Positions 20,613 to 32,569 of a stretch of 53,154 nt of DNA are shown piece by piece. The first letter of the stretch is position 1, and the number at the start of each line of letters is the position of its first letter. The DNA lies in NCBI GenBank assembly GCA_003142935.1, contig PLOG01000163.1:1-53154 (forward strand). Direction: 5' to 3'. The notes below the pieces were generated by a model. The model searched no databases. It was not told where the DNA came from and saw only the letters and a list, made by a program, of their open reading frames with translations. The DNA comes from Acidobacteriaceae bacterium (GTDB taxonomy: Bacteria; Acidobacteriota; Terriglobia; Terriglobales; Acidobacteriaceae). The position numbers and the translations under genes were made by a program.

Positions 20613-21040
20613 GTTAACTCCGCTCACATAATTCTATTGCTCTCCCTCATCCATAGCCCATTCGTGTTCTGTCGGTAACGTACATTTCTGGAATCGTTCC
20701 TCGCAAGTCGGCATGGCGGCTGGGATCTCGCGATCTGCTCTCGGGGGAGAGTCGCGGAGGACTCCCCGACGCTGGGGCGTTTAGCAATACCTATCCTCAA
20801 AAGAAGCCCACCGTGTTACCAGTGCAGGCTCCATCGCGCGCATAGATTTCAATCATGGCTTTTGCGGTGTAGTGGTAACAGCTATGAGAGGTCCACGCTT
20901 TCCTTCGGCCAGGAGATTACTTTCTAGCCCGCTGCTATGTCTTTAAGGTCCATGGGTGCGAATGCCAATGAAAAGAGAATCGAACAAGCGAAGACTGCCA
21001 ATTGCGGCTCGACCCGCCTGAAGAACTACACTTGAGCGAT
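20613..21040. other. gene-free leader before the two-component genes
   Basis: No gene or clear RNA is seen. The stretch has GC-rich self-complementary patches (around 20735-20780) and a tRNA-D-arm-like string near 20868 without a T-arm. A promoter for the kinase gene should lie here, but I cannot fix one. Confidence 0.4.
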
Positions 21041-22117
21041 ATGGTAGAAGTACCAACGCAATTCGGTGGCTCTAATCCCGCGCCTGTGCGAGACCTCGTT
21101 CTGCTCTCGCTCAGTGGGGCCTGGGTTCTGCCCGTGCTCGGCACTGCCTTTTGGGTTCTCCACGTTTCGGCGGCGTTCAGGACCGCGGTTACCATCCTTG
21201 CCATTCTCGCAGCGCCTCTTCCCGCGCTTTTTTTTATGTTCAAACAACGACGCCGGCTGATTGCCTGCGCGGCGAAGAGCGAGGAGGCCGCCGCGCAACT
21301 GAAGCTGCAATTGGATACGGTCCGCTACCGCACGTCGCGTTTGCGCGAGGAGTTGCAGGCTGCAGACCGGCAGGCGCGGCTGAGCCACCAACTTACTCTG
21401 CTGGGCCAGTTCACTGCCGGGTTCATGCACGAGTTCAACAATCCGCTTGCAATCGTGGCGGGGCGCATCGAAGTTCTGCTGGACGAACGCAAGCACGATA
21501 CCGCGCTGTGTGCGGATCTCGAGCAGATGCTCAAAGAGACGCGCTACATGGGCAACATCGCCGGCACGCTGCTGCAGGCGCTGCGGCGCGAGCGTGCCGG
21601 AGAAGTCTATGAGGCATCGGCTCCGCAGAAGGCCTTGGAAGATGCAATGGCAGCGTTGCGGCCCGCGGCAAAAAGCCAGGGAGTGACGCTGATGGAGGAG
21701 ATCGGGGAAGCGCCACGGGTGGACGTGCCCGAGCACGTCATTGGCGAAGTGGTTCGCGGCCTGTTGACCAACGCCCTGCAAGCATTGAAAGGGCGAGACG
21801 AAAGCATGATCTGGATGCGCCTTGAGCCGTATCGCACGGCCGGCGCCAGAGTAGTGGCACGGATTGAAGACAACGGCCCAGGTGTTCCGGAGAACATCCG
21901 GCAACATCTCTTCGAGCCGTTCATATCAAGTAGCACGGGGCGAGAGAGGCTGGGTCTGGGATTGTTTCTGGCCGCAAGCCTGCTTGATATGTATGATGGC
22001 CGCGTTCGGTACGAGATGAGAGATGGTGGCGGGGCGAGCTTCGTAATCGAGCTGCCCCCGGCACGATTTACTCGCGGCCAGCCCTACCACTGGTTTGCCG
22101 GAGGGACGACCGAGTGA
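21041..22117 (+). CDS. membrane sensor histidine kinase of the NtrB type
   Basis: The kinase has 358 residues from the ATG at 21041; an in-frame TTG 13 codons upstream is less likely. Two hydrophobic helices near the N-terminus (LVLLSLSGAWVLPVLG, TILAILAAPLPALFFMF) anchor it, and a coiled coil follows (~residues 68-112). The H-box FMHEFNNPLAIV puts the phosphorylated histidine at residue 130. Next come an N-box (EVVRGLLTNALQAL), a G1 box (EDNGPGVP) and a G2 box (GLGLGLFLA), all intact. It has no periplasmic sensor domain of note, so it may sense membrane or redox state. Its stop overlaps the GTG of the response regulator by four bases, so the two are coupled and form a pair controlling the cytochrome genes downstream. 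Confidence 0.9.
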   Translation: MVEVPTQFGGSNPAPVRDLVLLSLSGAWVLPVLGTAFWVLHVSAAFRTAVTILAILAAPLPALFFMFKQRRRLIACAAKSEEAAAQLKLQLDTVRYRTSRLREELQAADRQARLSHQLTLLGQFTAGFMHEFNNPLAIVAGRIEVLLDERKHDTALCADLEQMLKETRYMGNIAGTLLQALRRERAGEVYEASAPQKALEDAMAALRPAAKSQGVTLMEEIGEAPRVDVPEHVIGEVVRGLLTNALQALKGRDESMIWMRLEPYRTAGARVVARIEDNGPGVPENIRQHLFEPFISSSTGRERLGLGLFLAASLLDMYDGRVRYEMRDGGGASFVIELPPARFTRGQPYHWFAGGTTE

Positions 22118-23514
22118 GCCGCATTGTTGTGATCGACGACGAAGCCGCGCTGGGGGAGAACATCCAGCGGATGCTGCGCCTGCCGGGCGCCGCCGTGCAA
22201 GTCTTTGTAGACCCGGTGAAGGGTCTTGCCGAGTGCCTGACCAACCCGCCTGACCTTGTTTTGCTCGACGTGCGGATGCCGCGCATGTCGGGAGAAGAGG
22301 TTTTTGCGCGTCTGCACGAAGCCCATCCCGGACTTCCGATCGTCTTCCTGACGGCCTTTGGGTCCGTGGAGAGCGCGGTCCTGGCCATGCGCAACGGCGC
22401 ATTCGATTACCTGCAAAAGCCCTTCCAGCGCGAGGATCTTCTACTCGTGGTCAAGCGTGCGCTCTCACATGCCAAGCTGGAACGCGAGGTGGAAACGCTG
22501 AAGGAGAGGCTGGAAGCCCTCGGCGAGGCGGATGCCGCCCAGACCCGCAGTCCCGCCATGCTGGATCAGATGGAAAAGTGCCGCCGAGCAGCAACCACCG
22601 ACGCCACGGTGATGATCCTGGGCGAGAGCGGCACGGGCAAGGAGGTGACCGCGCGCTTCATCCACGGCCAGAGCCGGCGCAAGGAGGGGCCTTTTGTGCC
22701 TGTCGAGTGCAGCGCCATGCCAGGCTCGCTGATCGAGAGCGAACTCTTCGGCTACGAGCGCGGCGCATTCACCGGCGCGGAGCGCACCAAGAAAGGACTG
22801 ATCGAATCCGCCGACGGCGGTACGTTATTTCTGGACGAAATCGGCGACCTTGGGGTTGAGCTGCAAACACGCCTGTTCCGCTTTGCCGAAGAGCGGGTAC
22901 TGCGTCGTCTGGGTGGGCTCACTCTGGTGCGCGTGGACTGCCGCATCCTGTGCGCAACCAACCAAGACCTGCCGGCCAAGATCAAGGCGGGGACCTTTCG
23001 CGAAGAGCTTTACTACCGGCTGAGCGTGGTAACGGTCAAGCTGCCGCCCCTGCGCGAAAGGCCGGAGGATATTCCGCATCTCGCGCGCTTCTTCCTCGAA
23101 CGTTTCTCTCGGCGCTACGGCAAGAGTCTGTCCGGTTCGCCGCAGTTTTACAGTGCATTGCTGAAGCAGCGCTTTCCGGGTAATGTCCGCCAGTTGAAAA
23201 ACGTGGTGGAACGGCTGACCGCATTGCATCCGGGCGGAGTGCTGGGACTGGAGGATCTGGAAGAGGACGCACCGCAGGTGGAGGCGGTCAGCAGTCTTTC
23301 CGCGCTTCCCTGGAAGGATGCCCGGGAACAGTACCTGGCCAGTTTTGAGAGTTCCTATGCGCAAGCAGTGCTGGTCCGTTGCGGCGGCAATGTGAGTGCA
23401 GCCGCGCGCGAGGCCGGTGTGGACCGCAAGACCTTTTACGCGCTTTTGAAGCGGGAACGGGACCAGCAGTCTGGGGAATCCATTCCCCAGACCGAGCGGG
23501 AAAGCGGGGAATGA
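22114..23514 (+). CDS. NtrC-family sigma-54-dependent response regulator
   Basis: The 466-residue activator starts at GTG 22114, inside the kinase stop. Residues 1-120 are a receiver domain with acidic pocket DDE (9-10) and phospho-acceptor D52 in LVLLDVRMP. The AAA+ domain has Walker A GESGTGKE, the sigma-54 contact loop GAFTGA (intact), Walker [12 protein letters not shown] and an R-finger region [20 protein letters not shown]. The C-terminus is a Fis-type helix-turn-helix ([20 protein letters not shown]). An intact GAFTGA motif means it should open sigma-54 promoters. A -24/-12 element lies 59 bases past its stop, before the Cyc2-like gene, making that operon the likely target. Confidence 0.94.
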
Positions 23515-23572
23515 AATCCTCATCCTCCAAGGAGCATCCGCGGAAATGATTGAAAGCAAAAGATGCATGCTT

Positions 23573-23588
23573 TGGCTCCTCGATTGCT
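23573..23588 (+). promoter_or_regulatory. -24/-12 (sigma-54) promoter for the Cyc2-like operon
   Basis: TGGCTCCTCGATTGCT matches the consensus TGGCACGN4TTGCW at 10 of 12 defined positions, with GG and GC exactly ten bases apart. The predicted transcript would start near 23599, directly before the Shine-Dalgarno AGGAG (23600-23604) of the gene at 23615. An inverted repeat AAAGCA-N9-TGCTTT (23553-23573) lies just upstream. The adjacent NtrC-type activator supports the reading. Confidence 0.75.
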
Positions 23589-23614
23589 GAAGTAAGGGTC
23601 AGGAGCTCCCGCAT

Positions 23615-24955
23615 ATGAAACTCTGGACCTCAGGGTTAGAGGCTGTTCTTGTAGTGCTCGGCTTGATTCTGCTGATGCCGCAGCCAGGAAACGCTATTCC
23701 CGCATTTGCCCGGAAATTTGGCGTGAAGTGTTATACCTGCCATACGGTTCCGCCGGCGCTCAACAAGAACGGATACATGTTCAAGCGGCTCGGCTATCGC
23801 ATGCCGCCCGACGAGATGGACGGGACAAAGCCGGCGCCCAAAATCTCCGAGCTGGACAAGGACATCAAGTTCAGCATCACAAACGCCTTTGCGCTGATCC
23901 TGCAGGGCAGTGTGACCAACGATAAGACAATAGCCGACGCAGGGAACACAACCTCGGCATCGCCCGTCTCATCTTGTAACTCCGGTGTCGATGGCACGCA
24001 GCAGAGTTCTTCCTGCTCCAGTTTCAACCTGGACGAAGCAGCGCTGTTTGTGGTGGGAACGGTGCCTGATACCGGCTTCTCCTACTTCGGACACTATGAA
24101 CTCTATCAGGGAGGAACGTCCGACCTGGAGCAGGGCTTCGGAGTCTACACGGCCGGTCGTGCCAACAACAGTTTCTTCATCAAAGCCGGTGAGATTCATA
24201 TGCAGGAGGGTGAAGGAACCCGCGCTGCCATGATGTACAACCTCTTCAGCGATCCCGCGTTCACGCTGGAAAACACCGATCCTAACCTCTTCTCGCTCGA
24301 CCAGCACCCTGTAGGAGTCGACGTTGGTTATACACACGCCACGAACTATTTCAAGAATGTGTTTGCCGTCTCGGCCAAAGTCACCAACGGCCTGAATGCC
24401 GATGGCAGCGAGATTCTCGATAGCTCCATCAAGAACTCAAAGGATGTGTGGGCCGACGCCGACTACTGGTTTGGCCCCGACGGCGGAGTCACTGTGATGA
24501 TGTACCGCGGATCAAAGGATCAGATTCAGAATTCCGGCGCATCCAACCAGTTCACCTTTCGCCCAACGATCTGGCGGACCGGGGCCTTCGGCAACTACCT
24601 CTTCTTCGACAAGCTCGATTTGCTGGGCGGTTATATGCGAAGCCAGGACGACTGGCAGTGGGTGCAGGGCGGCCCCTTGTCGAGCTACATCGCTAATTCG
24701 TACCGCGGAGAGGCAGACTACTACATCAAGACGGGCACAGTCATCATGGCACGCTACGACCATGGAGGCGAGACAATCGCTCCTCAGCCGACGATGCGCT
24801 CGCAGGCCTGGGGCATAGGTGGCGAGCATGCCCTCACGTCCTTGGGCAATGTTGTGCTTCGCGCCGCCTACACTCAGGAGCATGACGGTGATCCGGTCGC
24901 CCTCGCAGGCACCACCGACAAACTGTTCAGACTTGATATCCGCTACATGTGGTAA
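23615..24955 (+). CDS. Cyc2-like fused monoheme cytochrome c/outer-membrane porin
   Basis: The protein has 446 residues: a signal peptide cut after ~A27, then AIPAFARKFGVKCYTCH with one c-type heme site at residues 39-43, and PALNKNGYMFKRLGYRMP. The remaining ~370 residues alternate in beta-barrel fashion and end in FRLDIRYMW, an aromatic terminus typical of outer-membrane barrels. This layout (short cytochrome with the AxPxFAR..CxxCH signature fused to a porin of ~16 strands) is that of Cyc2, the outer-membrane Fe(II) oxidase of neutrophilic and acidophilic iron oxidisers. Related proteins of unknown function exist, so iron oxidation is a hypothesis. It is the first gene after the sigma-54 promoter, and AGGAG precedes its ATG. 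Confidence 0.8.
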   Translation: MKLWTSGLEAVLVVLGLILLMPQPGNAIPAFARKFGVKCYTCHTVPPALNKNGYMFKRLGYRMPPDEMDGTKPAPKISELDKDIKFSITNAFALILQGSVTNDKTIADAGNTTSASPVSSCNSGVDGTQQSSSCSSFNLDEAALFVVGTVPDTGFSYFGHYELYQGGTSDLEQGFGVYTAGRANNSFFIKAGEIHMQEGEGTRAAMMYNLFSDPAFTLENTDPNLFSLDQHPVGVDVGYTHATNYFKNVFAVSAKVTNGLNADGSEILDSSIKNSKDVWADADYWFGPDGGVTVMMYRGSKDQIQNSGASNQFTFRPTIWRTGAFGNYLFFDKLDLLGGYMRSQDDWQWVQGGPLSSYIANSYRGEADYYIKTGTVIMARYDHGGETIAPQPTMRSQAWGIGGEHALTSLGNVVLRAAYTQEHDGDPVALAGTTDKLFRLDIRYMW

Positions 24956-24967
24956 GGAGAGACTCAT

Positions 24968-25378
24968 ATGCACAAGGCAATCTATGCAATCGTGGCCGCC
25001 GGCCTCTGTTTTCCTCTTATTCTGGCGGCGCAGAGTGGCAGCAACGTAACGCTTCCGCAGGACAAGGGACCGGCAAAGATCGACGTCTCAAGCTATCCCG
25101 CCGATCAGCAGAAGGCCTATAAAGTGTTTGCGGACAAGTGCTCCAAGTGTCACACCATCGCTCGGCCCATCAACACCACCATGCCGCGGCCGGATTGGGA
25201 GCGCTATGTCAAGCGCATGATGCACAAGCCGAATTCCGGGATCAGCGACAGCCAAGGGAAGACGATTTTCGAGTTCCTTGCTTACGACCAGGAGAATCGC
25301 AAAGACAAGAATGCGTCCGCGTTCTTCAAGTCGCTGAGCGACGACGAGATTGAAAAGCTGAAAGCTCAACAGCACTAG
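24968..25378 (+). CDS. small periplasmic monoheme cytochrome c
   Basis: This 136-residue exported protein has a signal peptide ending near ILAA and a single heme site CSKCH at residues 58-62. The following NTTMPRPDWERYVKRMMHKP offers methionines as possible distal ligands. GKTIFEFLAYDQENRK is a C-terminal helix usual for small class-I-like cytochromes. AAGGAG lies before the ATG, and the gap from the Cyc2-like stop is 12 bases, so they are cotranscribed. In Cyc2 systems a periplasmic cytochrome takes electrons from the barrel; this protein is the natural candidate. A strong terminator follows. Confidence 0.88.
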   Translation: MHKAIYAIVAAGLCFPLILAAQSGSNVTLPQDKGPAKIDVSSYPADQQKAYKVFADKCSKCHTIARPINTTMPRPDWERYVKRMMHKPNSGISDSQGKTIFEFLAYDQENRKDKNASAFFKSLSDDEIEKLKAQQH

Positions 25379-25435
25379 GACGTATTCGCGGCTTCCTCTG
25401 CCTTTTGTGCAAGGCGCAAGCGATTCTTCCTTGAT

Positions 25436-25471
25436 CCCAGCGAGCGTCAGGCCCGCTCGCTGGGCTTTCTT
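25436..25471 (+). terminator. strong rho-independent terminator
   Basis: CCCAGCGAGCG (25436-25446) pairs perfectly with CGCTCGCTGGG (25454-25464), with a seven-base loop and the T-rich tail CTTTCTT. It separates the two-gene Cyc2-like transcript from the flavoprotein/bc operon, which must therefore have its own promoter or rely on read-through. Confidence 0.88.
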
Positions 25472-25546
25472 ACAAGAGCTCTCATCGTCATCGGCAGTGC
25501 TTTCGGGTTAGAGTAGATCAAATTCAATCGCCAAAGCGGAGAACGC

Positions 25547-27385
25547 ATGCCATACACCATCACGGTCCCGGATCGGGAATATTTCGACAAGAATATTCCG
25601 TGCCGCGCTGCCTGCCCGATTCACACCGAATGTGGACGCTATGTACAGGCCATCGGGATCTCGAAGGACGAGAAAGCATACCTGCTGGCGCGTGCGCCCA
25701 ATCCATTCGCCTACGTTCTTGGCCGCATCTGCGCACACCCCTGCGAGGACAACTGCCGGCGCGGCAAGATCGACGAACCGATCGCCATCTGCGCATTGAA
25801 GCGCTACGCGACCGATCGCCACAATCTGGGTACAGGACACGATCCAGCCCGCAAGAAGCTGCCGCCGCCTCCAAAGCGCGATAAGCGCATTGCCATTGTG
25901 GGTGCAGGCGTCTGCGGCCTTACCTGCGCCCATGATTTGGCCCTGCTTGGTTACACGGTTGAAGTCTTTGAGTCCGCGCCGGTCCCAGGGGGGATGCTCT
26001 ATCTGGGCATTCCCCAGTTTCGCCTGCCACGCGAAATCATCAAGATGGAAGTAGACAACATTCTGGCCATGGGGGTCACGCTGCATACCCGAGTGACACT
26101 GGGACGCGATCTCACATTCGGCGAATTAAGGTCGAAGTTCGATGCGGTTCTGCTGGCCACGGGACTCAACAAGGGCCGCGAGCTGAACATTCCTGGAGCC
26201 CACCTGGCGGGCGTCTACAACGGCATCGATTTTCTGATCAACGTCAATCTCGGTTTCGAGATCGAGCTCGGCAAGCGCGTGGTTGTGGTGGGTGGCGGCA
26301 ACGTGGCCATCGATGTGGCGCGCGCGGCCGTGCGCCTGGTGCAGGAGTCAGCGGACTTCGTCGCTCCCGATGACGGAGGAAAGAGCCTCCAGCCTGCCCT
26401 GGATGCGGCGCGCATGGCGATGCGATCGGGCGCCGAAGAAGTGGACATGGTCAGCCTGGAATCGCGCGCGCTGATGCCGGCGTGGAAAGGCGAAGTGGAC
26501 GAAGCCGAGCACGAGGGTATCGTGCTCGAAAATGGCTGGGGACCGAAAGAAATTGTCGGCGAGAATGGAGTCGTCACCGGACTCAAAGTTCGGCGTTGTC
26601 TCACAGTCTTTGATGAAAACGGCCGCTTCAATCCGGTATTCAGCGACGAAGAGAAGACTATTCCCTGCAACAGCGTGATCCTGGCCATCGGTCAGCAGGC
26701 CGACCTCTCGTTCCTCAGCGGCGAAGAAGGAGTGCAGGTGACGCCGCGCGGGATCCTCAAGATTGACGAGAACCTGATGACCACCGCCCCCGGCGTTTTT
26801 GCAGGCGGCGACGTAGCCTTCGGGCCGCGCGTCCTTGTGGAGGCCGTGGCCAATGGGCACAAGTCGGCGCGCTCCATTCATGTCTACCTTAGCGGCAAGA
26901 CCGCCAAGACTGTCCTCAGCCGCTTCCGCATCCTGCCCAACTGGGAGATGCCGCGCGGCTTTCTCGCGACTCCGCGGCAAAAGATGCCGGTTCTGGCGGC
27001 CAACCGGCGCATCGGCATTGCCGAAGTGGAGCTGGGCTTCGACGAAGAACAGGGCCGCGCCGAAGGACGGCGCTGCCTCAACTGCCAGGTAAACACAATC
27101 TTCGACGGATCGAAGTGCATTTTGTGCGCGGGCTGCGTGGACATATGTCCGGAGAATTGCCTGCGCCTGGTTGACCTGGTGCAGGTGAGCGGCGATGCGC
27201 GCTACGACGCGCTGATCATGCAGCGCTACGGGGTACCCAGCGCCGAACTGAAAGCCGGCCAGGCGGGAGCCATCATCAAGAACGAAGAGAAGTGCATCCG
27301 CTGCGGGCTCTGCGCCGAGCGATGCCCAACCGGGGCCATCACCATGGAGGCCCTGGAGCAGCAGGAGCGGGAAGTCTTTGAATAG
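25547..27385 (+). CDS. GltD/NfnB-like Fe-S flavoprotein, NAD(P)H-linked, with C-terminal ferredoxin domain
   Basis: This 612-residue oxidoreductase has an N-terminal cysteine-rich region (CRAACPIHTECGRYV, ICAHPCEDNCRRG) like the 4Fe-4S domain of the glutamate synthase small subunit. An FAD-binding Rossmann fold follows (IAIVGAGVCGLTCAHDLALL) and then a second, NAD(P)-binding fold (VVVVGGGNVAIDVARAA). The flavin-closing motif TAPGVFAGGDVAFGP is present. The C-terminus adds two 4Fe-4S motifs, CILCAGCVDICPENC and CIRCGLCAERCPTGA. GGAG precedes the ATG. Directly downstream are Rieske and cytochrome b genes. Linkage of such a flavoprotein to a bc complex is known from anammox planctomycetes, where electron exchange between quinol and NAD(P)H is proposed. 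It lacks the glutamate synthase large subunit, so ammonia assimilation is unlikely. Confidence 0.88.
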   Translation: MPYTITVPDREYFDKNIPCRAACPIHTECGRYVQAIGISKDEKAYLLARAPNPFAYVLGRICAHPCEDNCRRGKIDEPIAICALKRYATDRHNLGTGHDPARKKLPPPPKRDKRIAIVGAGVCGLTCAHDLALLGYTVEVFESAPVPGGMLYLGIPQFRLPREIIKMEVDNILAMGVTLHTRVTLGRDLTFGELRSKFDAVLLATGLNKGRELNIPGAHLAGVYNGIDFLINVNLGFEIELGKRVVVVGGGNVAIDVARAAVRLVQESADFVAPDDGGKSLQPALDAARMAMRSGAEEVDMVSLESRALMPAWKGEVDEAEHEGIVLENGWGPKEIVGENGVVTGLKVRRCLTVFDENGRFNPVFSDEEKTIPCNSVILAIGQQADLSFLSGEEGVQVTPRGILKIDENLMTTAPGVFAGGDVAFGPRVLVEAVANGHKSARSIHVYLSGKTAKTVLSRFRILPNWEMPRGFLATPRQKMPVLAANRRIGIAEVELGFDEEQGRAEGRRCLNCQVNTIFDGSKCILCAGCVDICPENCLRLVDLVQVSGDARYDALIMQRYGVPSAELKAGQAGAIIKNEEKCIRCGLCAERCPTGAITMEALEQQEREVFE

Positions 27386-27397
27386 GGGAGCAAGGGG

Positions 27398-27853
27398 ATG
27401 AATCGTCGAGATTTTTTCAGTTGGGGAACAGCAGGTTTCGTCGCGCTGTGTTCAGGCGTTGCTGTGAGTCTGGGAGCGGTGGTCCGGTTCTTGGTGCCCG
27501 ATGTTTTTTATGAGCCGCCTCAAGTATTCAAAATCGGCAACCCCGGCGACTTTCCTTTCGGCCCGCCGACATTTCTGGCGGACGAAAAGATCTATGTGTT
27601 TCGCGATCGGGACAAGGGATTTGCCGTCGCCAGCGCTGTTTGCACGCACCTGGGCTGCACGGTCAACTACTTCCAAAGCGATCAGAAATTCCATTGCCCT
27701 TGCCACGGCAGCGTGTTTGCGCGTGGCGGCGATGTGATTCATGGACCGGCGCCACGGCCATTGCAGTGGTTTGAAGTAACAGTGACTCGCGCTGGACAGC
27801 TTCAAGTGGACAAAGACAAGGTAGTGCCGGACAGCTACCGGTTGATGGTGTAA
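27398..27853 (+). CDS. Rieske 2Fe-2S protein of a bc-type complex
   Basis: The 151-residue protein begins [10 protein letters not shown], a twin-arginine-like signal, followed by one membrane helix ([20 protein letters not shown]). The cluster ligands are complete: CTHLGC (C82, H84, C87 nearby) and CPCHGS (C100, C102, H103). It would be anchored in the cytoplasmic membrane with the cluster in the periplasm, taking one electron from quinol at the Qo site of the neighbouring cytochrome b. It starts 12 bases after the flavoprotein and ends 2 bases before cytochrome b, so it is in the same operon. Confidence 0.95.
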
Positions 27854-27855
27854 CG

Positions 27856-29142
27856 ATGAATCTGATCCGAGAAATCTGGCAATCGATCGTCCGGCGGGAT
27901 CCACTGTCAACCGACAAGGGAAAGTCAGAACTGGTCTTTCTTAACGTCTGGTTGCATATCCATCCGGCCAAGGTGAAGAAGGAGCATCTCAGGTTCAAGT
28001 ACACGTTTTACCTGGGGTTCATTACCTTCTTTCTGTTCCTGATCCTGGTTACTACAGGGATCGCTCTGATGTGTTACTACCGGCCCTATCCTCCCATGGC
28101 CTACCAGGACATGAAAGATCTGCAGTTTGTGGTCTTCATGGGTCCTTTCCTGCGCGCCATGCATCGTTGGGCCGCGCACGCCATGGTGGTTTGCGTATTT
28201 CTTCATATGTGCCGCGTGTTTTACACCGGCTCCTACAAAAAGCCGCGACAGTTCAACTGGGTGGTAGGCGTACTGCTGCTACTGCTGACTCTGGGCCTTT
28301 CCTTCACGGGCTATCTGTTGCCGTGGGATCAGCTGGCATATTGGGCCATCACGGTCGGAACCAACATCGGCGGCTATGCGCCCCTGGTGGGTGGACAACT
28401 GAAAGAGTTGCTGCTCGGCGGCCACACAGTCGGAGAGGCCGCGTTGATTCGCTTTTACGTACTCCATGTGGCCGTGCTGCCGTCGCTCATGATCCTGTTG
28501 ACGATCGTACATTTCTGGCGCATCCGCAAGGATGGCGGGCTCTCGCGGCCGACGTGGAAACTGAGGCCCAACAAGACCGAAGCCCTGGTCACCATCGGCG
28601 CGCCGGCAGAAGTAGCGCCGCTGAAGACGGTGGCCGCTTCAACCGACAAAACCTACGGGCTGATGGAAGTCGTTACCGGCAAGCCCATCTTTGAGACGGT
28701 AACTCCGGAAGAGGAAGAAGACGCGGTCTTTTCCTATCCGTATGCGTTCTTCCGGGAAGCCATCGCGTTGATGGTTACGGTCACGGGTATCATGGCCATC
28801 TCCTTTTTCTTTCACGCGCCCCTTGAAGAGCTGGCCAACTCGGCAAAGACGCCCAACCCGGCCAAGGCGCCATGGTATTTTCTGGGTCTACAGGAACTGG
28901 TCAGTCACTCCGCGCTGCTGGGTGGCGTAGTTGCGCCGGCTCTGATGGTGCTGGTGCTGATCGCAATTCCATATCTTGACAGGAATCCCAGCCGCCGGCC
29001 TGCTGACCGCAAGTTGATTCTCTGGCTGTTCACCTTCTTCGTTGTCGCCAACCTGGTTCTGATCGTCATAGGAACCTTCTTCCGCGGTCCCGGCTGGGCG
29101 TTTGTTCCACCCTGGGTACATGTTGTTTCGGGGGCAGAGTAA
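27856..29142 (+). CDS. cytochrome b subunit (b6-type, fused with subunit-IV-like C-terminus)
   Basis: This 428-residue membrane protein is the quinone-reactive core of the complex. Helix B carries H103 and H117 ([16 protein letters not shown]). Helix D carries two histidines 15 apart ([19 protein letters not shown]), the spacing of b6 rather than mitochondrial cytochrome b. A hydrophilic linker (~residues 225-300) joins a second part with three helices, corresponding to subunit IV. The Qo-site PEWY motif reads [11 protein letters not shown], so the glutamate that normally helps release a proton is absent. The same variation is known in related complexes with multiheme partners. The next gene starts one base inside its stop. 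Confidence 0.94.
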
Positions 29143-30533
29143 TGGGACGCAAACTACCGCAATTCTTCTTCGCGCTGAGCATGCTCGCTCTGGTGCTGAT
29201 CGCAGCGGCAGTGTGGCAAGCCAGCACGCCCTCCTGGAAGAACTATCAGCGCGCCTTCTTTCAACTGGAGGCGCAGGGGGAGCCCAACGCGGTGACCAAG
29301 GCCGCTGTTCTGGCTACGCCTCCGCAGATTCATCAAATCCTTCTCCCTGGTCTGCAGCGCGTCGACCGGTGCACCACGTGCCATCTTGGCGTGGATGACC
29401 CCACCATGAAGAACGCGCCGGAGCCTTTCCGCTATCACGCCGGTCTCGGACCCCACATTCCGTCAAAATTTGGTTGCACCATTTGTCACGGCGGCCAGGG
29501 ACTCGCAACTGACGTCAAGGATGCGCACGGCAACGTGCCGTTCTGGCCAAACCCGCTTCTGTCCAGCGATTACATTCGTGCTTCCTGCGGCAGATGCCAC
29601 AAGGAAGGCGATGTCCCCGGCGTGCCGGAATTGACTGAGGGAAGGCGCCTCTTTGAGACCGAGGGTTGCCACGGCTGCCATAAGTTGAACGGCGTAGGCG
29701 GCAGCATTGGCCCGGATCTGACGGATGAGGGCGCAAGCCACCGCTCTCCCGATTGGCTCGAACGTCACTTCCTCGCTCCCAACGTTGTTTCGGCCGGATC
29801 CGCCATGCCCAACTTCCATTTCACCAGGGAGCAGGCGCGCGCGCTCACCTATTACATGCTCTCGCTCACGAACGCCGACATGGGCTCGTACTACTCAAGC
29901 ATGCGCCTGATCCCGAGCCCCGAATACGGCCGGCAACTGTTCGTCGAGAAGGACTGTATCGTCTGCCATGCCATTGGGGGAACCGGAGCTAAGGTCGGTC
30001 CCGATCTGCTCGGTGTCACCAAGCGCCATTCGATGGAGTGGCTGGACGAACAACTGGTGAATCCGCAGCTTGTGTATCCAGGCAGCTCCATGCCCGAATA
30101 TGACCTGGAGGCGAATGTGCGCACGGCGCTGGTCGCCTTCATGGCGTCCGCCACGCAGGAAGATGCGCAGGAAATCCTGGCTCACAGAAGCAATAAGCTC
30201 ACTCCCGAAGACGTCGCTATCGAAGCCGGCAAACGTGACTTTGCCCGCTTTGGTTGCGCGGGCTGCCACGGTACGGAACTCCAGGGAGGCGTGCCGAACC
30301 CTAACGCCCAGGGAGGCCAGGTCCCTTCGCTTCTGCATGTCTCCGACGATTACACAAAGGATGAGATCATTCAGATCATTCGTGACGGCAAGGTGCCTCC
30401 GTTGGACAACGCAGCGGGTCCAACGCCTCCGTTGTACATGCCATCGTGGAAACACCTGCTGAGCGACGAAGATATCCACCAGATCGTCGATTTCCTCTGG
30501 TCTATGCAACAGAAGGCGAAGGATAGCTGGTAG
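29142..30533 (+). CDS. hexaheme c-type cytochrome, membrane anchored
   Basis: The 463-residue protein starts with an uncleaved-looking hydrophobic helix (FFALSMLALVLIAAAVW) and carries six CxxCH sites: CTTCH (77), CTICH (112), CGRCH (149), CHGCH (176), CIVCH (272) and CAGCH (372). The N-terminal half resembles a multiheme electron collector. The three later sites sit in class-I cytochrome domains with distal methionines (SAMPNF, SSMPEY, LYMPSW). It takes the place of cytochrome c1 in the complex and would pass electrons to soluble or outer-membrane carriers. It overlaps the cytochrome b stop by one base and is followed by a terminator hairpin. Confidence 0.93.
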   Translation: MGRKLPQFFFALSMLALVLIAAAVWQASTPSWKNYQRAFFQLEAQGEPNAVTKAAVLATPPQIHQILLPGLQRVDRCTTCHLGVDDPTMKNAPEPFRYHAGLGPHIPSKFGCTICHGGQGLATDVKDAHGNVPFWPNPLLSSDYIRASCGRCHKEGDVPGVPELTEGRRLFETEGCHGCHKLNGVGGSIGPDLTDEGASHRSPDWLERHFLAPNVVSAGSAMPNFHFTREQARALTYYMLSLTNADMGSYYSSMRLIPSPEYGRQLFVEKDCIVCHAIGGTGAKVGPDLLGVTKRHSMEWLDEQLVNPQLVYPGSSMPEYDLEANVRTALVAFMASATQEDAQEILAHRSNKLTPEDVAIEAGKRDFARFGCAGCHGTELQGGVPNPNAQGGQVPSLLHVSDDYTKDEIIQIIRDGKVPPLDNAAGPTPPLYMPSWKHLLSDEDIHQIVDFLWSMQQKAKDSW

Positions 30534-30564
30534 CAGCCGAACCTTCGCCGCATGAGCGCTTCAC

Positions 30565-30604
30565 GCCGGAATTTTCCTGTTCATAAAACTCAGGGAATTC
30601 CGGC
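30565..30604 (+). terminator. hairpin terminator after the bc operon
   Basis: GCCGGAATT (30565-30573) pairs with AATTCCGGC (30596-30604), and the inner TTCCTG/CAGG bases can extend it. It lies 31 bases after the hexaheme cytochrome stop. Confidence 0.7.
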
Positions 30605-30652
30605 ATGGTGGCCGGGTTCGGTCCATTCTGATTCTTTGCGGAGGTTCATCGC

Positions 30653-31186
30653 GTGAAGCCTTCATCGAAATCCCGCCCCACAGCCTTCGTGACGCTCCTC
30701 AGCGCTGCACTCGTCGTAGTCGCAACAGCCGCGCAGGCACCGCAAAACGCTCAAAGGCCCGCTGCCGCTGCAACGCCGCCTCCACCTCCCGCCTATCCGG
30801 CTCCCACAAACCTCAAGGTGCTTCCCAAAAACCTGACCGGGCAACAGGTCCACGACATCATGAAACAGTGGAACGGTGAGCTGGGAGTTCGATGCGGCGC
30901 CTGCCACGCGGAAGACCCCGGCATCGTCACAACAGACGGTCCAGCGCGCCCCGCATTGGCAGAGGATTCCAAGGCACTGAAGGAAATTGCGCGCCTCATG
31001 TACACCATGACTGAACAAATCAATACCAACTACATCGTCAGGGTCGCGGGCTCCAGCATGCCGGTCACCTGTAGCACCTGCCATCGCGGCAACATCGGTC
31101 CGGAGCCGTTTACCATCCAGCCGGCCGGCGGACCACCTCCCGTCCAGGCCCCGCCGAGTCTGGAGGAAAGGCCGCAGCCGCAATGA
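30653..31186 (+). CDS. diheme cytochrome c of the photosynthetic-reaction-centre cytochrome family
   Basis: The 177-residue exported protein starts at GTG with CGGAGG upstream. After a signal peptide and a Pro/Ala-rich linker comes NLKVLPKNLTGQQVHDIMKQ, then CGACH (81-85), a helix (EIARLMYTMTEQINTNY) with candidate Met ligands, and CSTCH (140-144). This is the repeating unit of the tetraheme reaction-centre cytochrome (CytoC_RC). Two-heme versions are common in non-phototrophic Acidobacteriota, so no photosynthesis is implied. It likely carries electrons between the bc complex and the outer-membrane modules on either side. Confidence 0.87.
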   Translation: MKPSSKSRPTAFVTLLSAALVVVATAAQAPQNAQRPAAAATPPPPPAYPAPTNLKVLPKNLTGQQVHDIMKQWNGELGVRCGACHAEDPGIVTTDGPARPALAEDSKALKEIARLMYTMTEQINTNYIVRVAGSSMPVTCSTCHRGNIGPEPFTIQPAGGPPPVQAPPSLEERPQPQ

Positions 31187-31412
31187 CAGAATGCCCTGGC
31201 ACGCTCTCCATAAACCGCAGGACAAGCCGGCAATCCATCACAGCCCTGTCGACCAAAGAGTTCAGCCCCTCGCCATGAAGAACCGAATCCTTAGCCGCCG
31301 TTCACAATTGCTCGAACGCCATCTTGGTGAAGCAGGCTATGATGCCCACGCCCCGCATGTATCCAGTCTTAGGTGGTCATTGACGAATAGCGATGGGCCA
31401 GTTAGGCGCAAC

Positions 31413-32381
31413 ATGATCGGTGCGGTTTTGGGAAAAAGACAAGGCCCGCGAGCCTGTTTCATGCTGTTGTTCTGCGCAACAATGTTTTGCGCAACGGCAT
31501 TGGCCTCTCGGCCGGGCGGATCCAATTCGGTCGAAACCGAGGCCGTCCAGTCGGGCTCGGGTGACTCTGCCAATGCAGCTGATTGCGCGACCTGTCACAA
31601 AGAGGTGGTAAAGGACTTTGCCAGCAATTCGCACAGTCGGCCGGTGCTGATGCATGGCGGCAAAGGCGTGACCTGCGAGAGCTGTCACGGCCCCGGCAAG
31701 GCGCATGCGGAGGCCGGCGACGTCACCATGATCTTCAACCCCGCCCGCGCTACCGCCAAAGAGGTGCATGAAAAATGCCAGACATGCCATAAAGCCAGGC
31801 ACGCAAACTTTGAACGCTCGGTCCACGACAAGGGAAACGTGAGCTGCATCGGCTGCCACAGCATTCACTCTGCCGGCGCGCCGAAGCATCTGCTCAAGAT
31901 GGAGCAGCCCCAGCTCTGCTTTTAGTGCCACAGCGACGTAAAGCCGCAGTTCTCCATGCCCTTCCACCACAAGGTTGAGGAGGGAATGATGCAGTGCACA
32001 GACTGCCACGATGCGCACGGCGCCTTGGGAGAGAATGCGCTGCCGTCTTCCACATGGCAGTTTATGGCGTGCACCAAATGCCACACGTTGACCGCCGGAC
32101 CCTTTGTCTATGAGCACGCTGCGGTCAAGGCCGAAGGATGCACTGCCTGCCATTTCCCTCACGGAGGAACGAATCCCCGGTTGCTGACTCAAGCCAAAGT
32201 GAACAGGATCTGCCTGCAATGCCACTTGCCGTCGCCGAACTCCCCAACGGGCCAGCCTGCCGTACCGGAGCATATCCAGTCTGCACAGAGCCAGTCGTGC
32301 ATCAGCTGTCACTCGAGCATTCACGGCTCCAACGTCAGCGACGTCTTCCTGAGCTCCACGGAGAAAAGGCGCAGCCATTGA
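31413..32381 (+). pseudogene. MtrA/DmsE-like decaheme cytochrome gene with an amber codon in heme motif 5
   Basis: Reading from the ATG at 31413 gives a signal peptide (MLLFCATMFCATALA) and nine intact CxxCH sites: CATCH, CESCH, CQTCH, CIGCH, then CTDCH, CTKCH, CTACH, CLQCH, CISCH. A tenth reads C-F-stop-C-H: TAG at 31923-31925 replaces what is most simply CAG (Gln). The frame is unchanged across the stop, and the total of ~322 codons with ten hemes matches the MtrA/PioA/DmsE family. That family conducts electrons across the outer membrane inside a porin. The truncated product would have four hemes. The ATG at 31956 could restart only a leaderless half. No MtrB-type barrel follows. It is a nonsense mutant, a sequence error or, less likely, a read-through gene. 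Confidence 0.85.
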
Positions 32382-32569
32382 CACGGCAGACGGAAATCGG
32401 AAAATGTCTGTGTGGACCGCCTGCTGAAGTCACTTTTCCGATGGTACACACTTACCCCGGCGGCCATTCCGCCATCTCGGTATATGACAAAGAGTTCATC
32501 CAGATCTCGGTAAGCGTTCAGGCCTGATTTGCCGATAACCCATGTGGAGGTAATCCCTGAGCCTATCAA
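32382..32569. other. gene-free junction between the cytochrome cluster and mobile debris
   Basis: No gene is supported. Short open frames on both strands carry no family signature. Sequence character changes here from the GC-rich cytochrome genes to the lower-GC mobile region. Confidence 0.4.

Follow-up and report, generated by a model that had tools for sequence, protein, structure and literature searches.

In Desulfovibrio vulgaris, the accessible part of PMC4641369 describes sigma-54 promoters served by NtrC-type activators that carry a GAFTGA motif, are encoded beside their targets and bind inverted-repeat sites, with the largest fraction of promoters lying within 100 nucleotides (nt) of the closest activator site. 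In Geobacter sulfurreducens, the RpoN regulon as given in the available text of PMC2725144 ties sigma-54 to cytochromes of extracellular electron transfer. The rus operon of Acidithiobacillus ferrooxidans (cyc2-cyc1-...) begins with a Cyc2-type gene followed by a c-type cytochrome gene (accessible parts of PMC5506826 and PMC10654088), and the sigma-54-dependent operon named in the former source is tet, not rus. Each of these arrangements shares features with a stretch of 53,154 nt of contig PLOG01000163.1 (GCA_003142935.1, Acidobacteriaceae bacterium; genome of 5.2 Mb), hereafter called the window, in which a -24/-12 element precedes the gene of a Cyc2-like porin-cytochrome, a predicted electron conduit of the outer membrane. 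Judged from its sequence context, this is a real motif and almost certainly a sigma-54 promoter. A first-pass annotation had placed the element between the gene of a GAFTGA activator and the Cyc2-like gene and had assigned it to sigma-54. The placement is confirmed, and the assignment gains support from rpoN, the conservation of the motif, the neighboring activator gene, a pair of palindromes and an IHF-like box.

The -24/-12 element

The element TGGCTCCTCGATTGCT shows the exact GG-N10-GC spacing and matches the consensus TGGCACG-N4-TTGCW at 10 of 12 positions; motif, spacing and score of the first-pass annotation are thereby reproduced, on the + strand. A promoter call from the match score alone was rejected. 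The window contains four TGG-N10-GC sites of at least 10/12 on both strands, compared to a mean of 3.7 (range, 1 to 8) in 30 shuffles, and a looser pattern finds 111 sites, compared to 115.7 by chance. With the score at chance level, it is conservation that carries the case for the promoter.

Conservation was assessed in 27 distinct loci: the window, 21 relatives obtained by a protein search of genome contigs (titled Acidobacteriaceae or other Acidobacteriota, several of them originating from bog, palsa or fen) and L038, L041, L042, L043 and L048 of the same class. L036, L037, L039 and L040 were excluded as duplicates of L022, L008, L016 and L015, respectively (260 of 260 upstream bases identical). 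L050 is without upstream sequence, and the promoter piece of its genome, L111, was read separately, outside the 27. GG-N10-GC stands before the Cyc2-like gene in all 27 loci, its spacing having been imposed for anchoring. The flanking T bases were not imposed, and here a T precedes GC in every locus, while the three T bases preceding GG are present in 25, 25 and 23 of them. Pairwise identity over the same loci is 34% in the promoter spacer, 35% in the leader and 27% in the DNA from the palindromes to the IHF-like box. Stretches of 83 nt contain GG-N9-TGC in 27 of 27 cases, where base shuffles would give 1.7. In a 28th locus (G377), TTCGGTTGGTGACGTGC lies 68 base pairs (bp) downstream of the second palindrome. 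The motif, whose loss in close relatives would have spoken against the original call, is thus kept in all 27 loci, weakly in L019, and in one more.

These comparisons also bear on the reading of the motif as a product of chance, with transcription of the operon either starting at a promoter of the sigma-70 type or reading through from the kinase and activator genes upstream. The chance-level score agrees with it, and read-through is possible given that only 100 bp lie between the end of the activator gene and the following start codon, with no terminator-like site detected in 23400-23700. It is nevertheless highly improbable, given the motif's conservation in 27 of 27 loci amid near-saturated surroundings, its near-fixed distance to independently located palindromes and the absence of a sigma-70-like site from 23400-23700.

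Counting 12 nt from the C of the -12 element leads to the same predicted transcription start and the same leader of about 16 nt as had been annotated; the ATG is at 23615. Over the 27 loci, pairwise identity reaches 51% in the Shine-Dalgarno columns, compared to 35% in the preceding leader. The description of the promoter as fused to the Shine-Dalgarno sequence is loose, as the two are separate and the latter would begin at about +3 of the predicted transcript. The strict signal dependence claimed for the Cyc2-like gene would follow from the way sigma-54 works.

Tandem palindromes and IHF-like box

Upstream of the promoter, the window contains two copies of the palindrome GGGGA-N6-TCCCC 33 bp apart, the second of which begins 68 bp before the promoter GG. 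The exact sequence GGGGAATNNATTCCCC occurs only once in the genome, as palindrome 1, and at up to two mismatches it is found in 16 places, including these two. The tandem pair has no second occurrence in the genome when up to three mismatches are allowed. This threshold is too loose for the 399 genomes of the class, 104 of which contain a match; at up to two mismatches, the matches listed are G043, G269, G364 and G378, all at this locus, and the unrelated G330. An alternative form of the enhancer, GGGGAAT-N3-ATTCCCC, was discarded for its wrong spacing in favor of the 16-bp palindrome; its 28 forward matches genome-wide do not include the locus. A further palindrome, GGGGAATTTATACCCC, lies elsewhere in the genome (L031; G000:C41:361-376), one mismatch from the enhancer form, and may mark another target.

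The geometry of the pair is nearly fixed among the 27 loci. The spacing is 33 bp in 24 loci, 34 bp in two and 32 bp in one, and the distance from the start of palindrome 2 to GG is 68 to 70 bp in all of them, the degenerate copy of L014 counted. At most one mismatch is found in palindrome 2 of 26 loci and in palindrome 1 of 21. Where palindrome 2 was found independently of the promoter (26 of 27 loci), GG-N9-TGC follows 66 to 72 bp downstream in 26 of 26 cases, and six other distance ranges, taken as controls, gave no such occurrence. The NtrC-type activator encoded next to the tandem palindromes probably binds there. The first-pass annotation had proposed 23515-23572 for footprinting of the regulator; most of these probable sites (23473-23521, mainly in the activator gene) fall outside that region.

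The stop codon of the activator gene, TGA at 23512-23514, is located within palindrome 2 of the window, and palindrome 1 lies within the coding sequence. Of the 22 loci formed by the window and its 21 relatives, 21 have the activator stop within a palindrome, L014 being the exception. The stop is contained in palindrome 2 in 18 loci and in palindrome 1 in L015, L019 and L020; in L019, whose palindrome 1 has two mismatches, it was placed by eye. The reading frame runs through the half-site, GGGGA or a sequence differing from it by one base, into the stop, as in GGG-GAA-TGA, GGG-GAA-TAA or GGG-GAG-TAG. As 33 bp correspond to 11 codons, both palindromes stand in one reading frame. In G043, G332, G377 and G378, activator homology continues through one stop, as expected for a stop at palindrome 1. 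A single DNA stretch would thus be under simultaneous coding and regulatory constraint.

Between enhancer and promoter, the window contains a 13-bp box resembling YAANNNNTTGATW, which we take to be the IHF consensus. A box with at most one mismatch occurs in 16 of the 27 loci, compared to 0.65 expected in shuffles, and the best match has the same offset in 24 of them; five loci are without the box.

Kinase, activator and RpoN

The activator gene is directly upstream of the Cyc2-like gene in 21 of 21 relatives, with 76 to 89% identity. The kinase gene precedes it in 20 of 21, L020 containing only the last 49 residues; the contig of L014 starts inside the activator gene. No Pfam domain other than HisKA and HATPase_c is found in the kinase of the window.

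A Cyc2-like match at E 1e-10 or better is present in 36 of the 399 genomes, and ten of these 36, including the genome of the window, contain a near-ortholog (at least 61% identity). At a threshold of E 1e-150, with scoring confined to the top four candidates of each genome, 11 of the 399 genomes contain an activator ortholog, and a Cyc2-like gene follows it in every one of them. These 11 are the ten with the near-ortholog and G269. In the latter, activator, palindromes and promoter are the same, and the genes behind them encode a divergent Cyc2-like protein (about 40% identity) and an additional cytochrome (L071; 4340-6031, reverse complement). This arrangement indicates that the switch can be retained while its first target is exchanged.

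The sigma-54 claim depended on rpoN, which is present in the window's own genome (E 4.9e-57) and, among the other genomes tested that carry the locus, in 10 of 10 (11 of 11 in all; in G043 as two adjacent pieces). The open frame in the own genome contains ARRTVAKYRE, presumably the RpoN box.

Five Cyc2-like genes of 39 to 44% identity without the activator (L044 to L047 and L049) have no good promoter element at the distance seen in the locus. L044, L046 and L049 show no GG-N10-GC of 8/12 or more within 300 nt. L045 has such a site of 8/12 at -132 and L047 one of 10/12 at -144, the latter further upstream than in the locus; the distances count from the beginning of the match, not from the start codons of L045 to L047, and are rough. 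A second Cyc2-like copy in G364 lies outside these five.

Distant Cyc2-like genes of other families (L073, L074, L077, L080 and L084) have a different kinase and activator upstream, with other genes between. The activators of L074, L077, L080 and L084 are about 42% identical and that of L073 is 38% identical. Between activator and Cyc2-like gene, the former four show GTTACC/GGTAAC repeats near the activator end and GG-N10-GC before a small gene (two by script at 8/12 or more, two by eye), possibly a second case of sigma-54 control.

Proposed mechanism of the switch

The elements, their near-fixed spacing, conservation and co-occurrence can be read directly from the sequences (Table 1) and make it very probable that the Cyc2-like operon is transcribed from an activator-driven sigma-54 (RpoN) promoter. 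RpoN polymerase would be held as a closed complex at the -24/-12 element. The membrane histidine kinase would phosphorylate the NtrC-type activator, which would then occupy the two palindromes where the gene encoding it ends. With the DNA bent at the IHF-like box by IHF or an HU-type protein, the AAA+ ring would open the promoter, and the transcript from about 23599 would yield the porin-cytochrome and its cytochrome partner. Partial read-through past the hairpin would extend expression to the oxidoreductase, Rieske, cytochrome b and cytochrome c genes. Binding, phosphorylation, bending, start site, read-through and the exchange of electrons with an extracellular donor or acceptor are the inferred parts of this scheme.

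Table 1. Positions of the switch elements and operon genes in the window
Feature	Position	Strand	Basis or remark
Sensor histidine kinase, HisKA + HATPase_c	21002-22117	+	N-terminal hydrophobic segments by eye; 4-base overlap with activator gene
NtrC-type sigma-54 activator: receiver, AAA+ with GAFTGA, Fis-type helix-turn-helix	22114-23514	+	Domain matches, translation
Probable enhancer palindrome 1, GGGGAATCCATTCCCC	23473-23488		Within activator coding sequence
Probable enhancer palindrome 2, GGGGAATGAAATCCTC, 1 mismatch	23506-23521		Contains activator stop
IHF-like box GAAATGATTGAAA	23543-23555		2 mismatches to YAANNNNTTGATW; between enhancer and promoter
-24/-12 promoter TGGCTCCTCGATTGCT	23573-23588	+	Spacing, consensus match, conservation
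Predicted transcription start	23599	+	Inferred: 12 nt past -12 C
Shine-Dalgarno sequence AGGAG	23601-23605	+	9 nt before ATG
Cyc2-like monoheme cytochrome + predicted 16-strand porin fusion, 446 residues	23615-24955	+	Translation, alignment, model, Foldseek
Small c-type cytochrome, one CXXCH, periplasmic by inference	24968-25378	+	In 21/21 loci
Hairpin with T-rich tail, 11 pairs, terminator- or attenuator-like	25436-25464	+	Between second and third operon genes
GltD-like NAD(P)/FAD oxidoreductase with 4Fe-4S domains	25547-27385	+	Domain matches
Rieske iron-sulfur protein	27398-27853	+	Domain matches
Cytochrome b (b6-type)	27856-29142	+	Domain matches
Multi-domain c-type cytochrome	29142-30533	+	Cytochrome c matches of FixO/CcoO type only
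Small c-type cytochrome akin to cytochrome subunits of reaction centres	30653-31186	+	Domain matches

Several points weigh against this scheme. The loci are kin, and 27 loci do not represent 27 independent events; the count of activator orthologs covers only the four top-ranking candidates of each genome. The promoter element of L019 matches the consensus at 5 of 12 positions, palindrome 1 has two or three mismatches in 6 of the 27 loci, and both palindromes of L014 have three. The IHF-like box of the window itself has two mismatches, the best match in L043 has three and a different position, and none of the three HU/IHF-like genes of the genome scores above the IHF-beta curated cut-off. Transcription may stop at the hairpin that follows the second gene.

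On a wider scale, sigma-54 gating of Acidobacteriota Cyc2-like porin-cytochromes may be recurrent, with at least two kinase-activator lineages and enhancer sequences. In the present lineage, the stop codon would be built into the activator's own enhancer, and the 33 bp (about three turns and eleven codons) would let the C terminus shift between the palindromes while the enhancer stays. This generalization is tentative, its chance being somewhat short of even.

The Cyc2-like protein

The published Cyc2 signature consists of AXPXFAR[Q/K][T/Y] before a single CXXCH, followed by PXL, according to the accessible part of PMC8406198. The protein of the window shows AIPAFARKF, one CXXCH and PAL, with F instead of T or Y at the last signature position. 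Over 22 aligned sequences, this position is Y in 16 and F in 6 (the window and five others). The length of 446 residues exceeds the minimum of 365 for a Cyc2 with a C-terminal 16-strand porin, and 16 strands of at least eight residues are predicted between residues 91 and 445 in a low-confidence model. As the mean predicted local distance difference test score is 54.8 (block means of 27 to 37 in the heme region), the barrel topology alone is used and the heme region is not. The best Foldseek matches are porins. PorB comes first, and ranks 15 and 16 are taken by OprP and OprO, the structures named in the accessible part of PMC8406198. No Pfam or NCBIfam match is obtained at E 0.001. Signature, 16-strand model and porin matches together make the label "Cyc2-like" a fair one, which, being drawn from sequence and model, would not imply Fe(II) oxidation.

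There is close to an even chance that the promoter is correctly identified and the protein is not an Fe(II)-oxidizing Cyc2, the conduit exporting electrons (to Fe(III) or humics) or serving another donor. The function of Cluster 3 homologs, to which the window protein may or may not belong, is called the most uncertain in the available text of PMC8406198, and the complex of Rieske protein and cytochrome b with the NAD(P) oxidoreductase could run in either direction. Against this stand the heme-region motif, bar one position, and the predicted 16-strand porin, which fit the published description of Cyc2.

Downstream genes

The gene order from the kinase to the multi-domain cytochrome is identical in 21 loci as far as the contigs reach. 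The reaction-centre-type cytochrome follows in 8 of 21, several contigs ending near there. The protein scan from 21002 to 32381 reveals no rusticyanin and no oxidase catalytic subunit; instead of the components of a rus-type iron-oxidation operon, the locus contains the Rieske protein with cytochrome b and the GltD-like enzyme.

The hairpin after the second gene is strong in the window and variable among relatives. We read it as an attenuator that would lower expression of the membrane complex, the rival reading being a full terminator. In the latter case, sigma-54 would control the Cyc2-like gene and its cytochrome partner only, the oxidoreductase, Rieske and cytochrome b genes forming a separate, differently controlled unit. 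Such a division is possible, though clearly short of an even chance. The 11-pair stem with its T-rich tail fits it, as do hairpins of at least ten pairs in the same gap in 12 of the 27 loci (the T tail not being required by the script). The gap measures 9 to 14 nt in L019, L020, L042 and L043, too short for such a hairpin, and the genes look cotranscribed there. No GG-N9-TGC is found in the gap of the window and no sigma-70-like site in 24900-25600, yet 5 of the 23 longer gaps (L005, L006, L011, L012 and L018) have GG-N9-TGC at -42 to -153. The preserved core gene order also argues for a single operon under the sigma-54 promoter.

Further downstream, a gene for a DmsE-type decaheme cytochrome (31416-32384) is broken by an in-frame TAG at 31923-31925 within a CXXCH motif, representing a pseudogene or an assembly error; no such gene is seen in the stretch of G370. 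Beyond it, integrase-like frames were identified by eye on the minus strand, starting at about 33200.

Comparison with known systems

On the evidence of sequence, the case for the promoter is strong, and the locus presents a complete, conserved sigma-54 switch of the textbook type on an interesting target. The mechanism itself is textbook; the overlap of stop codon and enhancer and the Cyc2-like target look new. In the literature searched, as far as the accessible texts go, no Cyc2-type gene was found described as controlled by sigma-54, the work combining Cyc2 with sigma-54 or RpoN concerning Acidithiobacillus ferrooxidans, and the accessible literature on sigma-54, Acidobacteria and enhancer-binding proteins yielded only work on ECF sigma factors. 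The accessible parts of PMC12442345 and PMC12316311 offered nothing that bears on the matter. Roles of Cyc2-like genes beyond the characterized iron oxidizers are mostly deduced from sequence. As the switch is expected to be silent until signalled, the inducing condition would reveal the purpose of the conduit, and with the activator, two probable sites and the promoter defined to the base, it is practical to screen for the signal with a reporter.

In contrast to the sigma-54 switch proposed here, the rus promoters of Acidithiobacillus ferrooxidans are of the sigma-70 type, with RegB/RegA as the regulator studied, in the accessible parts of PMC5506826 and PMC10654088. Compared to the set from Desulfovibrio vulgaris, as far as the available text describes it, the target here is an Acidobacteriota Cyc2-like operon, and the palindromes are located at the 3' end of the activator gene, one of them with the stop codon. 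The Geobacter sulfurreducens consensus TTGGCACGGTTTTTGCT, given in the accessible part of PMC2725144, resembles the TTTGGC...TGC of this locus; in comparison with the regulon described there, the switch in the window combines a single adjacent activator with a single fused porin-cytochrome.
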